A stretch of 35,412 nt of DNA from a virus, in the IMG/VR virus record IMGVR_UViG_3300036846_000667, positions 1-35,412 of that record. One strand, 5' to 3'. The notes under the pieces were generated by a model, which was given only the letters and a program-made list of their open reading frames with translations, had not been told where the DNA came from and ran no database searches. This document shows positions 18,499 through 35,412 of the stretch, one piece after another. Position numbers and translations under genes: made by a program. Position 1 is the stretch's first letter. The number at the start of each line of letters is the position of its first letter.

Positions 18499-19655
18499 TC
18501 CTCCTCGGCTCGCTGGTCGTCATGCTCCCGGAACACGCGCACATGTTCGATCTTCGAGAGCGGAGCATCCTCCGGTCCTCGCCAATGCGCGGCGATCCAC
18601 GTCGGGCGACGGTACGCAAGCTTCGGCCCATAAGCCTGCCGCCGCCAGTGGCCCGACACCAGGAAGCGGACGTGGAGCTTGCGATGCTCGCTCTGCTCCT
18701 CCGCGCTCTTCGTCGCAGGAGCGTGGGCGCGGGATATGTCGATGATCTGCACGTCCGGTGCGGAGAGGCCCGCACGCTGCGCTCTCCTGCGCTCGCCGCG
18801 CGGCGCGCGCTCCTCCCGCGCTTGCACGATGCCGGGCTGCGAGAGGAGCAGCCAGAGCGCGGCGAGCCTGCGCCGATCTTCCATCACGGAGTCGAAGCCG
18901 TCGCCGTAGCGGAGCGCCAGGTTCTCCGGCTCTCCATCCTGGTCGTCGAAGCCTGCGAGGAGATCGTCGGTGAGCGCTCTCCCGATTACCCAATCGGCGC
19001 GGCCGAGCGGAGCCCAGATATCTCCGTGCAAGCTTGCGGAGATCCCGCGCTCGTCCGGGCTCCAGTCGCTCGGCATCGCCTGCGAGATCGCTCCGCTCGC
19101 GATCGCGAGTTGCAGCTCCTCGCCGTTCATGCCCATGTCAGCGTTGAGCTTCCGGTAGCTGACGATCCCGATCCCTGGGCGGGGGCCGATGCGCGCGTGT
19201 GGCTTGCGCGCGTGCAGCCGCACGATCTGCTCCGCTTTCGGTTCGAGCCCGAGCAGGATCGGAGCCCACGCGATCGCGTCCACTTGGATCTGCTCTCCGC
19301 TCTGCGCGTCGATTCCCGTCAGCGGCTTCTCGAAGACGACGAGGCCGTGCTCGCGCGGCATTAGCTCCCGCTCGCAGATCGTCTCATCCGGGAGCGTCTG
19401 CTCCGCCGAGAGGAGCAGGTCGCACATCTCCGGTGTGATCCACCACAGCGATGCTTCCGTGAGCGCGTACCGCTGCCAGACGGGCTCCTGGACCGCGGCG
19501 AGATGCGACTGCTCCCTCGACATGTGCGCGGCGGTCATGGAGTACGGGCCGTCGTCGCGCCAGCCGCGCAGCAACGCCTCCCGGAGCTTCGGTACGTCAC
19601 GCGGCCCGGAGATCCGCAGCGCCGAGCCCGAGAGGTTGAGATACGAGTCATCCAT
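18495..19655 (-). CDS. 386-residue protein, possible distant AcrVA2-like relative
   Basis: First and largest gene of the leftward operon. A helical N-terminus holds SLWWITPEMCDLLLSAEQ and LPDETICERELMPREHGLVV. The centre (residues ~150-260) has no motif I know. The C-terminus has VQIIDISRAHAP and a block SGHWRRQAYGP ... RRPTWIAAHWRGPEDAPL. The LPD.T...LMP...GLV stretch and the terminal GHW block recall the anti-CRISPR AcrVA2, which has distant relatives in many phages. I cannot run a profile search, so this is a hypothesis. It starts 9 bases from an operator-like dyad; a -10-like TATCCT six bases before the ATG suggests a leaderless transcript. Confidence 0.75.
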   Translation of the reverse strand: MDDSYLNLSGSALRISGPRDVPKLREALLRGWRDDGPYSMTAAHMSREQSHLAAVQEPVWQRYALTEASLWWITPEMCDLLLSAEQTLPDETICERELMPREHGLVVFEKPLTGIDAQSGEQIQVDAIAWAPILLGLEPKAEQIVRLHARKPHARIGPRPGIGIVSYRKLNADMGMNGEELQLAIASGAISQAMPSDWSPDERGISASLHGDIWAPLGRADWVIGRALTDDLLAGFDDQDGEPENLALRYGDGFDSVMEDRRRLAALWLLLSQPGIVQAREERAPRGERRRAQRAGLSAPDVQIIDISRAHAPATKSAEEQSEHRKLHVRFLVSGHWRRQAYGPKLAYRRPTWIAAHWRGPEDAPLSKIEHVRVFREHDDQRAEEE

Positions 19656-20784: not shown

Positions 20785-21068
20785 GCCCCGCCACTTGGAT
20801 CAGCGAGCAGACGCACGCGGCGGGCTGCGCTGCGTGCGATGAAGCATCCCGGAAGGCGATCACGATCGCGACCGCTACCGGGAGCAGGAGCGCGAGCTAC
20901 ACGGAAGCCGGGAACTGCGGCGCACGCGTGACGCGCAAGTGCGAGTGGTACGCGCTCTGCGATCAGAGCGCAGCCGGTACGACGCCGCATCCGATCCTGG
21001 GCGCGGTCCCGATCTGCGAGAGCTGCGCTGCGAAGCACGGCCTCACCATCTCGAAGGAGGAGCAATGA
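20781..21068 (+). CDS. Cys-rich, probable zinc-binding protein
   Basis: A 95-residue protein starting in an ATGA overlap. It holds CAAC near residue 16 and a later set, CEWYALC and ICESC, separated by ~20 residues, consistent with a zinc ribbon. It lies directly upstream of the integrase and overlaps it by four bases. Function unknown; DNA or protein binding is likely for such small zinc proteins. Confidence 0.7.
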   Translation: MSPATWISEQTHAAGCAACDEASRKAITIATATGSRSASYTEAGNCGARVTRKCEWYALCDQSAAGTTPHPILGAVPICESCAAKHGLTISKEEQ

Positions 21069-22519
21069 GCACACGCCGCGAACGTGAGCGGAGGCAGCCC
21101 CGAAAGGCTGCCCCTCGCTCTGCTGCCGCAAGGACGGTCAGCGCGTCCGATCCTACGCGCCGCGTCGGGATCTCGATCCGGATCAGCGTCGATCGGCCCG
21201 GAGAGATCTCGACGGAGATGCAAGAAGCCGCAGGCCGCGCCTACTGCAAAGCGAATCCCGGATGGGAGGTCGTGGAGGTCGCGATCGACCGCGGGAAAAG
21301 CGCGTACAAGGAGACGAGCCACCGGCCGGGCCTGGAGCGCCTGCTAGGGATGCTCGAAGCGGGAGCGATCGACACGCTGCTGGTCTACCGGCTCGATCGG
21401 CTCTCCCGCTCGACGATCCACTTCGCGAAGATCTGGCAGCGGATCGAGCAAGCGGGCGGCGAGTTCGTCTCCGTCTCCGAGAAGTTCGATACGACGAGCG
21501 CGATCGGCCGAGCGATGCTCCAGATCTCCATCGTCTTCGCCGAGCTGGAGAGCGGGATCAAAGCGGAGCGGACGACCGACTGGCACAACCACCGCAACCT
21601 GGAGCGGGCGCGCCCCGCAGGCGCGCGCATGTTCGGCTACTCGAAGGAGAAGAAGATCCTCCCGCTCGAAGCGGGCGTGCTCCGCAAGTACGCGCAAGCG
21701 ATCCTCTCCGGAGCATCCACCGCAGGCTTCGAGGAGGAGTGGGAGCAGCAAGAGATCCGCACCCCGCGCGGGTCGCGTCTCACGCGGCGAGCGCTCCGCA
21801 CGACGCTCCTCAACCCGCATGTCGCCGCGCTACGCGATTACGGGAACGGGAAGCTCGAAGCCGCGACCTGGAAGGCGATCATCCCGCCCGCCGATTGGGA
21901 GCAGCTCTGCGAGATCCTCGACGATCCTTCCCGGAGAGCGAACCCGGTCGAAGGTGCGACGCGCGCCAAGTATCTGCTCACCGGCCTGCTCACCTGCGGA
22001 CGCTGCGGAGCGAAGATGTTCAACCTCAACCACAAGACGCAGGGGCGGCGGTACCGCTGCAACAAGAGCAGCGGCAAGGGCGGGAACTGCGGCGCGTGCT
22101 CCATCGACGCAGAGATCGCCGACGAGGTTGTTCTCGGAGCGCTCCTCGATCGGCTGGGCGCGTCGGATCTCGAAGGGATCACCAGCGGGGTGAACCCGGA
22201 GGATGCGGTGCGCTCGATCGAGCGGGAGCTGGAGCAGCTCGCGACGATGAAGGCGAGCGGCGATATCGAGTTCGCCGAGTGGGAGATCATGCGGCGCGGG
22301 ATGAGCGAGCGGCTCGAAGCCGCCCGCGAGTTCGCGGCGCGGCCGCGTGCGCTCGCAGTCGATCTCGCTCGCTTCGAGGAGGAGCCGCTCGCGGCGAAAC
22401 GGATGCTGATCCAGTGGGCGTTCGAGCAGCTCACGGTCACGGCGTTCGTACCGGGAGGCGATCCTGCGCTGCGGATCGCGCCGACGCCGCGCCGGGAGGA
22501 GGAGGCGCTCGCCGCGTAG
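21065..22519 (+). CDS. int: large serine recombinase (phage integrase)
   Basis: A 484-residue large serine integrase that recombines attP with attB and makes the phage temperate. The catalytic domain has VGISIRISVDRPGE with nucleophile Ser41, a VYRLDRLSRS arginine motif (~120) and SIVFAELESGIKAERT (~170). A recombinase domain and a zinc ribbon (CGRCGAKM ... RCN ... CGAC, ~310-345) follow, with a coiled-coil region after that. Length is typical. The start at 21065 overlaps the preceding stop (ATGA) after an AAGGAGG-like site. A strong terminator follows. attP is expected nearby but cannot be identified from sequence alone. Confidence 0.95.
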   Translation: MSTRRERERRQPRKAAPRSAAARTVSASDPTRRVGISIRISVDRPGEISTEMQEAAGRAYCKANPGWEVVEVAIDRGKSAYKETSHRPGLERLLGMLEAGAIDTLLVYRLDRLSRSTIHFAKIWQRIEQAGGEFVSVSEKFDTTSAIGRAMLQISIVFAELESGIKAERTTDWHNHRNLERARPAGARMFGYSKEKKILPLEAGVLRKYAQAILSGASTAGFEEEWEQQEIRTPRGSRLTRRALRTTLLNPHVAALRDYGNGKLEAATWKAIIPPADWEQLCEILDDPSRRANPVEGATRAKYLLTGLLTCGRCGAKMFNLNHKTQGRRYRCNKSSGKGGNCGACSIDAEIADEVVLGALLDRLGASDLEGITSGVNPEDAVRSIERELEQLATMKASGDIEFAEWEIMRRGMSERLEAAREFAARPRALAVDLARFEEEPLAAKRMLIQWAFEQLTVTAFVPGGDPALRIAPTPRREEEALAA

Positions 22520-32438: not shown

Positions 32439-32812
32439 TGAGCCGAGATGGAGAGCGCGCGCCGATCACGCGCCAGCAATCGGAGTGGTTCGAGATCGAC
32501 GGCGACGGCTGGCTTGCACTCCCTCCTGGATCGGGAGAGGTCGCGGCGTTCGGTCGGCGCGTTCACGATGGGTTGCTGCGAGCGATCCGCGCCCGCGAGC
32601 GCGGGCTCCTCCACCTGTCGATCTCTTGGGCTCCGCACTCGGAGATGCAGGCGCGCCGCGGGCGGCTCCGCTATCCGTCGTGGGATGAGATCGCCGACGC
32701 CCGCGATCAGCTCCTCCCGCCCGATGTGGAGTTCGTCATGCTCCTCCCGAAGCGCGGCGAGTACGTCGCGGTCCACGCGACGACCTTCCACCTCCATGAG
32801 CACCGGCCGTGA
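32438..32812 (+). CDS. conserved phage protein (DUF7694-like)
   Basis: A 124-residue protein with an AAGGAGCAG ribosome site; its ATG shares one base with the previous stop. LLHLSISWAPHSEMQARRGR, YPSWDEIADARDQLLPPDVE and VAVHATTFHLHEHR are characteristic of a small family I know only as a domain of unknown function, frequent beside VRR-NUC or replication genes in actinophages. Confidence 0.72.
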   Translation: MSRDGERAPITRQQSEWFEIDGDGWLALPPGSGEVAAFGRRVHDGLLRAIRARERGLLHLSISWAPHSEMQARRGRLRYPSWDEIADARDQLLPPDVEFVMLLPKRGEYVAVHATTFHLHEHRP

Positions 32813-33072
32813 GCGACGAGCAGTTCCTCGCCGCGTGGCGGGCGTGGGATGCTCATCCGGGCCGCGTCGCCGAAGGAGCAGCGTTCGAGGAAGCGTGCCA
32901 AGCGAAGGCATCGGAGCTGCGCCTCTCGACGAGCACGCTGCGAGATCTCCTCGCAGCGTTCCGCCGCGCCGGGTACGCCCGCCCGGTCTGCCTCGCTGCG
33001 CTGCGCGGAGCTATCGGCGAGATCGCGAAGATCGGGAGGAGCCGCCACCCTTCCGCACACCGGGTGAGCTGA
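32809..33072 (+). CDS. hypothetical protein, last gene of early operon
   Basis: An 87-residue helical protein starting at a GTG that overlaps the previous stop. EEACQAKASELRLSTSTLRD followed by LLAAFRRAGYARPV may form a helix-turn-helix-like unit. The 3' end overlaps the oppositely oriented gene at 33011-33334 by 62 bases. Confidence 0.62.
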   Translation: MSDEQFLAAWRAWDAHPGRVAEGAAFEEACQAKASELRLSTSTLRDLLAAFRRAGYARPVCLAALRGAIGEIAKIGRSRHPSAHRVS

Positions 33073-33334
33073 CCGTTCCTTTCGAGCGGCTCACGGTCGG
33101 GATCTTCCCTCCGGTACGCGTGCGCGCCACCTGCGCCATCTTCGAGTACGACCCTCCCGTCTTGCTCGAAGAGGATCGGGCGAGAGCGTTGCGGTGCAGG
33201 TTGAGCCGCTGCGTTTCCGAGATCCCGGCGCGGCGCGCTTGCGCTTGCGTCGGCATCGGATACGCGCGGCGGGATGGGATCGCGAAGGCGCTCGGCGGGA
33301 GCGCGCTCCGTTGCTTCGAGGAGATCGGTGCCAT
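33011..33334 (-). CDS. hypothetical protein (LPxSAFAIP family, DUF6582-like)
   Basis: A 107-residue leftward protein with a strong GAAGGAGG ribosome site. LPPSAFAIPSRRAYPMPT and RNALAR match a motif pair (LPxSAFAIP..R.YP....RNALAR) seen in many phage and actinobacterial proteins, often fused to or near structural genes. The C-terminus is Ser/Arg-rich. It is the only leftward gene between 24.4 kb and the end. It is transcribed away from the PLP gene, sharing a 56-base control region, and converges on the early operon with antisense overlap. Confidence 0.72.
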   Translation of the reverse strand: MAPISSKQRSALPPSAFAIPSRRAYPMPTQAQARRAGISETQRLNLHRNALARSSSSKTGGSYSKMAQVARTRTGGKIPTVSRSKGTVSSPGVRKGGGSSRSSRSRR

Positions 33335-33357
33335 GCGGGCCTCCTTCGGTCATGGTC

Positions 33358-33382
33358 AGCGTATGGCGCTACGACATACGCT
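33358..33382. promoter_or_regulatory. operator-like dyad controlling the PLP/fusion operon
   Basis: AGCGTATG, nine bases, CATACGCT: perfect 8-bp arms and the longest of the ATG-N9-CAT dyads. It overlaps a promoter candidate (TGGTCA 33353-33358, 18 bases, TACGCT 33377-33382) whose start would fall at or just before ATG 33391. It lies between divergent genes. Confidence 0.7.
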
Positions 33383-33390
33383 CATCGCTC

Positions 33391-34074
33391 ATGGCAGCGC
33401 GTCCGGTCGTCGTCGAGCATGAAGGGATCACCGTCGTGCGCGACGATCTCGAACCGGGCGGCTCGAAGCGAGCAGTCCTCGACGAGATCCTCCCGGCGTG
33501 GGACTGCTCCGAACTGGTGTTCCCGGCCGCGTCCGAAGGGTACGGGCAGCTCGCCCTCGCGCTCGCGGGAGCGAAAGCGCACAAGCGGGTGACGCTCTTC
33601 GTCGCGGAGCGCAAGGAGCCGCATCCGCTGACGCGCTTGTCGATCGCCGCGGGCGCACACGTCAAGTGGATCCCGAACGGCCGGTACAGCACCGTGCAGG
33701 CACGCGCCCGCTCCTACGCGCTCGCGCATGAAGCGAAGTACCTGCCTCCGGGATTCTCCGACCCGGACTTCGCGGCCGGGATGGCGGAGCGGGCACGCTC
33801 GCTCGATCTCGATCCGCGCGTCGTGGTCGTCAGCGTCGGATCCGGGACGCTCTGCCGGGCGCTGCAACGAGCATGGCCGTACGCGCGCTTCCTCGCGATC
33901 TCCTACGGCATGAAGCCCGACGCGGGCCGCGCGGAAGTGATCGAGACGCCGGAGGAGCATTGGCAGCCCGCGCAGGATCCGCCGCCGTTCCCGTCTGCGA
34001 TCGGGCAGGATGCGAAAGCATGGAGGTTCGTGCCGCGTGATCCCGGCGTCGTGTTCTGGAATGTCGCAGGATGA
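33391..34074 (+). CDS. PLP-dependent fold-type-II enzyme (ACC deaminase/cysteine synthase-like)
   Basis: A 227-residue enzyme, shorter than the ~300-340 of typical family members. VVRDDLEPGGSKRAV contains the expected cofactor lysine (K26). ASEGYGQLALALAG (47-60) takes the place of the SNxGN.A.A substrate loop, and VVVVSVGSGTLCRAL has the glycine-rich phosphate loop (GSGT at 150-153). Known relatives deaminate or substitute at the alpha or beta carbon of amino acids. It is translationally coupled (ATGA) to the oxygenase-ParB-methyltransferase fusion, implying a joint pathway, most likely amino-acid-derived decoration of DNA. The start at 33391 is chosen to leave the promoter and operator free. 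Substrate unknown. Confidence 0.78.
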   Translation: MAARPVVVEHEGITVVRDDLEPGGSKRAVLDEILPAWDCSELVFPAASEGYGQLALALAGAKAHKRVTLFVAERKEPHPLTRLSIAAGAHVKWIPNGRYSTVQARARSYALAHEAKYLPPGFSDPDFAAGMAERARSLDLDPRVVVVSVGSGTLCRALQRAWPYARFLAISYGMKPDAGRAEVIETPEEHWQPAQDPPPFPSAIGQDAKAWRFVPRDPGVVFWNVAG

Positions 34075-35412
34075 CCGCAGCAGTCGAGGAGGAGCACGCG
34101 TGGCAGCGCGGCTATCCGCGTGAGCTGCTCCGGGAGATCTCGCAGCTCTTCGCCGCGCATGACCGCGGGATGGTCCGCTCCCGCTTCGGCCGCTTCGACG
34201 ATGCGGAAGCGGCCCGGACGCTCGCGGCAGGATCGCTGCGCCTGATCGCAGGGCCAGACGGGCAGCTCGCCGCCGCGGTCGTCATCCGGACTGCTCGCAG
34301 CTCCGGATCCTTCTCCGATTGGCGCGGCTACCGGATGAGCATCCCGGCCGGTGCGTCCCGCGTGCTCCGCATGGCGGGAGATCCGCAGCTCCTCGCCGCG
34401 CAGATCGCCGAGCTGCGAGCGCCGCTCTACGTCGAGCATTGGCGGGAGCATCCCGCCGAGCGAGGGATCCTCGAAGCGCTCGCGCTCGATCTCTGGGCGG
34501 TCAAGATCTCCGCCTACTCGGAGCTGCGAGGGATCGCCGCGCAGGATCCTCCTGACCGCCCTCTCGGCGATCTTGACGCGCAAGCGCTCGCCCAGCTCCA
34601 GGTCGAGGTTCCCGCCGCTCAGATCCTCGCAGAGCTGCGCTCCTGCGCTCCTCCCTTCGCGGACCATTACTCGACGTACAACGAGCGGGAGTCCTGGAGC
34701 GCGTGCTCCCTGCGCGGCTACTCCGACGATCCGGCGATGATCGAGAAGCCTTCCGAGATGCCGAAGCGCTGGAAGGCGGAGCATCTCGACCTCCTCGACG
34801 CCGAGCTGCGCGACACCGCGCTGTTCGAGCGCTTCCCAACCGTCCGCTCCTTCGTCGAGAGCATGGGCGTCGCCCATCGGGTCCGCTTCATGCGCCTCGC
34901 TCCGGAGCGCGGCGAACTCTCCCGCCACGCGGACAGCACCGATCCCGACGCGGGCAGCGATGACGGCAAGCTCATGCGCTGCCACTTCCCGATCGTCACC
35001 AATCCTGCGGTGCGCTTCTCCGGATGGGATCTCGACGGGGCCAGGCAGGAAGCGCACATGGCGGTCGGCGAAGGCTGGTGGCTCGACACCCGCAAGCCGC
35101 ACGCGGCGACGAACAGCGGGAGCACGGAGCGGATCCATCTCGTCGTCGATCTCGAAGCGAGCGCCGAGCTGCGCGCGCGTGCGGGCCGCTACGCCGAGCG
35201 GGTCGAGCAGATCATCCCGCAGCGGATCTCGATCCCGGAAGATCCGCCCGACCGATGGAGCAGACCGATGGTCGAGACACGCGATCCGACCGCAGCCGGG
35301 AAGATGACGGAGCAGAGCTACGTCATGGTCGGCCTCGAAGAGCTGAAGACGCATCCGCGCAACCCGCGTCGCGGCGACGCGGAGAGGATCGCTCGCAGCA
35401 TCATGGCGAACG
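34071..35412 (+). CDS. N-terminal 447 residues of an oxygenase-ParB-methyltransferase fusion (continues at base 230)
   Basis: Starts in the ATGA overlap with the PLP gene and stays open to the window end; through the 229-base overlap it continues to stop at 1542, 884 residues in all. Residues 1-165 may be a GNAT-like fold (LRLIAGPDGQLAAAVVI; RGILEALALDLWAVKISAY), a weak call. Residues ~190-365 are an Asp/Asn-beta-hydroxylase-type double-stranded beta-helix: H286-A-D288 and H344 form an iron triad (SRHADST; KPHAATNSG), RCHFPIVTN lies between them, and R354 ten residues after H344 would hold 2-oxoglutarate. The ParB-like domain begins around 417. The PLP gene upstream suggests a DNA-modification complex. 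Confidence 0.85.
   Translation, partial: MTAAVEEEHAWQRGYPRELLREISQLFAAHDRGMVRSRFGRFDDAEAARTLAAGSLRLIAGPDGQLAAAVVIRTARSSGSFSDWRGYRMSIPAGASRVLRMAGDPQLLAAQIAELRAPLYVEHWREHPAERGILEALALDLWAVKISAYSELRGIAAQDPPDRPLGDLDAQALAQLQVEVPAAQILAELRSCAPPFADHYSTYNERESWSACSLRGYSDDPAMIEKPSEMPKRWKAEHLDLLDAELRDTALFERFPTVRSFVESMGVAHRVRFMRLAPERGELSRHADSTDPDAGSDDGKLMRCHFPIVTNPAVRFSGWDLDGARQEAHMAVGEGWWLDTRKPHAATNSGSTERIHLVVDLEASAELRARAGRYAERVEQIIPQRISIPEDPPDRWSRPMVETRDPTAAGKMTEQSYVMVGLEELKTHPRNPRRGDAERIARSIMAN
35184..35412. repeat. terminal overlap, right copy
   Basis: Second copy of bases 1-229, with T at 35285 where the left copy has C at 102. It should be counted once when the genome is treated as a circle. Confidence 0.95.

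Follow-up and report, generated by a model that had tools for sequence, protein, structure and literature searches.

The window analysed here is an entire virus record from IMG/VR, 35,412 bases long. Its ends carry a terminal overlap, in which bases 1–229 recur as a second copy at 35184–35412 (assigned to neither strand) with one difference (C at 102 versus T at 35285); none of the alternative overlap lengths fits the two ends. When the record is closed on itself, a single open reading frame runs on the + strand from the ATG at 34071 through the junction (35412 being equivalent to 229) to a stop codon at 1540–1542 and encodes 884 amino acids. The first part of the gene (34071–35412) supplies residues 1–447 and the remainder, which continues from base 1 after closure (1–1542), supplies residues 372–884 and the stop. 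The protein sequence is the same with C or T at the mismatched position and the difference is therefore synonymous. Codon-position GC content is coding-like along the whole frame, including the junction (GC3 of 0.78–0.91 and GC2 of 0.39–0.58). We accepted the junction because of the 229-base overlap and because the frame is unbroken through it; on this sequence evidence, the gene that is split by the ends of the assembled genome is a single predicted protein of 884 residues.

The overlap, its lone synonymous difference, the register with the frame ending at 1542 and the continuity of the chain had all been proposed in a first-pass annotation of the window and are borne out by the overlap comparison and by the coding-type GC throughout. 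The interval given there, 34071–35412, holds for the first half of the gene but leaves outside both the remainder (1–1542) and a partner gene directly upstream (33391–34074, + strand), which encodes a PLP enzyme and had been overlooked. Linear annotation of the record hides a four-domain enzyme.

The end of the partner gene overlaps the start of the fused gene by ATGA; a start further upstream, at the ATG at 33274, is a less likely alternative. An Arg/Ser-rich open reading frame at 32448–33422 gave no matches and was rejected as a gene. On the other side, an HNH endonuclease-like gene (1539–2075) overlaps the stop of the fused gene and is followed by genes for the small and large terminase subunits. 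Elsewhere in the window, a serine-type integrase gene (20939–22519; PHROG 95, 2e-87, with a DNA invertase match) suggests that the phage is probably temperate, and ARAGORN places a 94-base tRNA-Ala (ggc) at 19169–19262, which is long for alanine, lies inside other open reading frames and is possibly false.

Domains of the fused protein and its partner

The N-terminal domain (residues 1–185; 34071–34625, + strand) was delimited from an AF2 model and from an alignment, in which it is paired with the oxygenase domain in full-length relatives. The model of residues 1–372, computed with a 46-sequence alignment, has a pLDDT of 95.5, and the succession of helices and strands in residues 17–157 follows the order of GNAT folds (α1-α2-β2-β3-β4-α3-β5-α4-β6-β7). 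By this predicted topology the N-terminal 165 residues appear to be GNAT-like, in line with a query to that effect in the first-pass annotation. The domain of the window protein has no Pfam match, GNAT matches, all weak, occur in a few of 45 relatives, and profile comparisons with two single GNAT/Mom proteins, including an hhalign run against one Mom-like protein, were negative, although a comparison with a single sequence is a weak test. GNAT-like domains are also found, without the oxygenase, fused behind a ParB-TSPPY methyltransferase (L169:481–2532) and behind a TSPPY methyltransferase (L172:1–1236).

Residues 186–372 (34626–35186, + strand) match the AspH family (PF05118; E = 4e-11, 43.4 bits against a cut-off of 22.6). 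The predicted iron ligands His286 (34926–34928), Asp288 (34932–34934) and His344 (35100–35102) and the 2OG-binding Arg354 (35130–35132) are retained in nearly all relatives: His286 in 45 of 46 and each of the others in 46 of 46. Structure prediction, which the first-pass annotation had proposed as a check and which was run on residues 1–372, places the strands of the β-barrel core as expected. The closest solved structure is that of L-proline cis-4-hydroxylase (1e-8 by profile and 5e-11 by fold), which leads the PDB matches together with Cpz10; AspH and EF-Tu prolyl hydroxylase are also among the fold matches. The TET/JBP family (PF12851) gave no match at E ≤ 1 in the fused protein (P0001), and a phage TET model scanned across the window came back empty. 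These results support the assignment of the domain as an AspH-type predicted 2OG-Fe(II) oxygenase, the family already named in the first-pass annotation, and not as a TET/JBP enzyme. Two peptide patterns yielded no confirmed match to the family in bacterial and archaeal genomes, although distant members can escape such patterns.

The ParB domain (121–531, + strand; GNHR motif at 280–291) passes the ParB_N cut-off (PF02195; E = 1.6e-6, 28.5 bits against 26.3) and matches ParB PHROGs (723/620; 5e-35). It is followed by an amino-methyltransferase-type domain (583–1539, + strand) with both the SAM motif I DTSTGYGGR (988–1014) and the catalytic PPY motif TSPPYF (1201–1218). Its match to PF01555 is below the cut-off (17.2 against 26.7 bits), a relative (L169) passes at 29.1 bits, and the ParB-methyltransferase part aligns over almost its full length with phage relatives, with 39–47% identity in the best of them. 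The two assignments made in the first-pass annotation thus hold, that of ParB above the Pfam cut-off and that of the methyltransferase by motifs and alignment, and every motif that it listed (His286, Asp288, His344, Arg354, GNHR and TSPPYF) was found. Methyltransferases with TSPPY motifs usually target exocyclic amines. Scans of the fused protein against NCBIfam and PADLOC gave no match, and close relatives of the first half of the gene were not found among viral contigs.

The partner is assigned to the PALP superfamily of PLP enzymes (fold type II) by PF00291 (5e-10, 39.7 bits against a cut-off of 35), alignment, model and PDB matches. The PLP lysine, Lys26, is invariant (54 of 54), and the model (pLDDT 95.0) matches threonine deaminase, D-cysteine desulfhydrase, cysteine synthase and ACC deaminase homologues in the PDB. 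Relatives in a viral scan number at least 452. In an independent scan that yielded 80 PALP loci, a DNA methyltransferase lies within 4 kb in 67 and the oxygenase is present in two, so that most PALP-methyltransferase loci are without the latter. In Pam4, ZS04, L009 and L023 PALP is inserted inside a methyltransferase and separates its SAM-motif half from its CPPY half. The methyltransferase of the window is of a second kind (GYGGR/TSPPYF), which also has PALP neighbours: one locus (L157) carries the PALP family of the window directly downstream of a window-type ParB-methyltransferase, and three (L154–L156) carry another kind of PALP directly upstream of one.

Related loci in other phages

Scans with alignments of the GNAT-like and oxygenase domains collected 60 loci, some of them from near-identical phages. 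DNA-modification genes adjoin the pair in all 60, which supports the role in DNA base modification suggested in the first-pass annotation. Two operon types account for the loci. In type 1 (24 of 60) the neighbours are ParB, a TET/JBP-like oxidase, an amino acid:DNA transferase (ADDT) and a P-loop kinase, although one or another member of the set went undetected in some loci, several of them short contigs. These assignments rest on Pfam matches above the cut-off in several members (ADDT PF18724 up to 1e-14, Tet_JBP up to 6e-23 and Ploopntkinase3 5e-71), and the HxD...H...R motif is conserved in 21 of the TET-like sequences. In type 2 (36 of 60) the neighbour is a ParB-methyltransferase, with PALP in 28 of the 36. 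Mixed loci and loci away from both gene sets each number zero among the 60. In the tree, the two types fall on opposite sides of one branch as separate clades (support 100/99), and the window forms a group with two other fused proteins, L094 and L097 (89/89 for the three).

Related fusions, of which the first-pass annotation was unaware, are present in L094, L096 and L097, where the modules are joined to a methyltransferase in orders that differ from that of the window; the same order (oxygenase-ParB-methyltransferase) was not found in 80 methyltransferase loci. The order in L094 is ParB-methyltransferase-GNAT-like-oxygenase, followed by PALP. In L097 the GNAT-like and oxygenase pair directly precedes the CPPY half of a methyltransferase, and the contig begins there; the arrangement suggests that the pair may be inserted in the methyltransferase, at the place where PALP sits elsewhere. 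Some ParB-methyltransferase loci have no PALP close to the oxygenase, and it is absent from the 34.6–36.9 kb contigs of L097, L103 and L104, which are possibly fragments; because of these loci, the oxygenase may perhaps be able to work without PALP. A small methylase-like gene follows the oxygenase gene in some loci where PALP is missing (L099:5594–6223, with a PF01555 match of 3e-10; L100:1832–2461; L104:8117–8740) and is a possible functional substitute for it. A further conserved gene lies beside the oxygenase and PALP genes in two operons (L108:6293–6904 and L115:6369–6995), the L115 protein having no Pfam match.

Two labels in type 1 operons deserve comment. Proteins annotated as 'queuine tRNA-ribosyltransferase' (gp2 of phage LilMcDreamy, PHROG 6059; L002:855–1787 and L093:1998–2981) look TET/JBP-like, with HxD...H...R invariant in 21 relatives, and the label is probably a mis-annotation; a DpdA/7-deazaguanine link by way of this label was rejected. 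The 'terminase small subunit' that follows the oxygenase (PHROG 800; L002:3761–4333 and L093:4910–5512) is a P-loop nucleotide kinase (PF18751, 5e-71).

Proposed function and alternatives

Sequence shows a fusion of recognisable domains whose catalytic residues are conserved, and a linkage that recurs across many phages; on these grounds the fused protein and PALP very probably belong to a DNA-hypermodification module. How such a module would work is a more tentative matter, and the reading that we favour, at a little under even confidence, is as follows. ParB would keep the complex on DNA, and the TSPPY methyltransferase domain would flip the base to be modified, with an exocyclic amine, N4 of cytosine or N6 of adenine, as its probable site of action. 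The methyltransferase and the PLP enzyme would place an amino-acid-like side chain on the base, which the AspH-family oxygenase would then hydroxylate as a late step; the GNAT-like domain may help to bind the side chain or acylate it further. Once complete, the modified base would shield the genome of the phage against restriction or other defences that target DNA. The target base, the side chain, the order of the steps and the protective role are all ones that we infer.

Two arguments converge on this scheme as the simplest. By analogy, the oxygenase probably acts on an amino-acid-like side chain carried by the base rather than on a methyl group, because proline and an aminoacyl-nucleoside are the substrates of the nearest oxygenases of solved structure. 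Furthermore, the type 1 product should be an amino acid on thymine, given the family names and the work on phage Tonitrus (PMC11955845); the same oxygenase is thus found in two attachment systems, and its substrate is therefore probably a feature common to both products. Against the scheme, some oxygenase-bearing contigs lack PALP, most PALP loci lack the oxygenase, and the GNAT-like assignment depends on topology. The SAM motif of the methyltransferase, moreover, is of the usual type, and methylation may be all that this domain carries out. A more specific proposal, which we consider somewhat unlikely in its full form, is that PALP and the amino-methyltransferase constitute a new, hydroxymethyl-independent means of attaching an amino acid or a SAM-derived aminobutyryl group to a base, widespread in phages to judge by the number of PALP relatives, with the oxygenase β-hydroxylating the amino acid on the base in the way that Cpz10 acts on a nucleoside.

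Hydroxylation could instead precede attachment, the oxygenase (with PALP) making a free modified amino acid that methyltransferase/PALP or ADDT then loads onto DNA. Some of the best PDB relatives of the oxygenase, L-proline cis-4-hydroxylase among them, do hydroxylate free amino acids, and β-hydroxy amino acids, as classic PALP substrates, would suit this order. The other close relative, Cpz10, acts on a conjugate, and the fusions, which join the oxygenase to ParB and a methyltransferase in the window and to a methyltransferase in L094, L096 and L097, argue for action at the DNA; we regard the free-amino-acid route as unlikely.

Slightly less probable again is the model of the first-pass annotation, in which the oxygenase oxidises a methyl group that the methyltransferase has put on a base, as TET/JBP enzymes do for 5mC and T. 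The presence of both domains in one chain, and of the pair without PALP in the L103 and L104 contigs, would suit it, but the oxygenase belongs to the AspH and not the TET/JBP family, so that the analogy is not supported, and a separate TET/JBP-like oxidase with conserved HxD...H...R adjoins it in most of the 24 type 1 phages, where methyl oxidation is for that reason unlikely to be its job. Oxidation of a methyl group on an exocyclic amine, the usual target of TSPPY enzymes, would moreover lead to its loss, and PALP would be left without a role.

Gene exchange near the terminase genes of phages, and the resemblance of PALP to serine/threonine dehydratases, could mean that an ordinary methyltransferase-ParB protein has acquired an oxygenase unrelated to it, together with a PLP gene from metabolism, and that they share no pathway; the 24/36/0 split of the 60 loci, the repeated fusions and the catalytic conservation are a poor fit to random neighbours and make this improbable. 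Least probable of all is hydroxylation of a phage or host protein, as by human AspH or the bacterial prolyl hydroxylases, which the fold matches to AspH and EF-Tu prolyl hydroxylase recall but which sits badly with the constant DNA-modifying neighbours and the fusion to ParB-methyltransferase.

Comparison with known systems

The favoured reading, side-chain attachment followed by hydroxylation, ties three orphan phage families (GNAT-like-AspH, phage PALP and ParB-SPPY methyltransferase) into one predicted hypermodification chemistry. It also suggests a second way in which amino acids may be joined to DNA. Phage DNA hypermodification, including the joining of amino acids, is already known. No account of a module that combines PALP and a methyltransferase with an AspH-type tailoring enzyme turned up in the literature searched, some key papers being beyond the search, and within that literature the route appears to be undescribed.

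The closest relative in architecture is Mycobacterium phage LilMcDreamy gp4 (YP_009949568, A0A5P8D6G5), which has the same two GNAT-like and AspH domains, is the best viral structure match (TM 0.84/0.86 over 365 residues), shares 39.6% identity with the window oxygenase and likewise sits in a ParB-led DNA-modification operon. Unlike the window domains, it is encoded by a separate gene, with TET/JBP-like, ADDT and kinase neighbours in place of methyltransferase and PALP. A gene set closely similar to type 1 has been named a thymidine-hypermodification system in phage Tonitrus, with a TET/JBP or hmU route, a 5-hmdU kinase and aGPT-Pplase/ADDT (PMC11955845). That pathway shares ParB with the window and, in the 24 loci, also the GNAT-like-oxygenase gene, whereas in the window methyltransferase and PALP replace TET/JBP, ADDT and kinase, homologues of which were found in none of its open reading frames using models built from the 24 loci.

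Phage PALP has the fold and PLP lysine of cysteine synthase, threonine deaminase, D-cysteine desulfhydrase and ACC deaminase, but differs from these enzymes in being only about 230 residues long and in its association with DNA methyltransferases, some of which carry it as an insertion. L-proline cis-4-hydroxylase (PDB 4P7W/4P7X), although the closest solved oxygenase, acts on a free amino acid. Cpz10 of caprazamycin biosynthesis (PDB 7V4F) is AspH-like and hydroxylates an aminoacyl-glycyluridine, the side chain of which is proposed to be SAM-derived (PMC9814697). It shares the AspH-type HxD...H iron site with the window oxygenase and acts on an aminoacyl side chain on a nucleoside, but its substrate is a free precursor of a nucleoside antibiotic rather than DNA and it lacks GNAT-like, ParB and methyltransferase parts. 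In the CmoX/CmoA/CmoY pathway to carboxymethylcytosine, a phage methyltransferase homologue, often found with ParB, makes a handle that is joined to glycine (PMC12783734); the words hydroxylase, oxygenase and pyridoxal are absent from the main text of that paper. CmoX thus resembles the window protein as a phage methyltransferase homologue that often occurs with ParB, and it makes a handle for amino acid joining, but its system differs in using a C5 (SPPC) methyltransferase, carboxy-SAM and an AMP-forming ligase.
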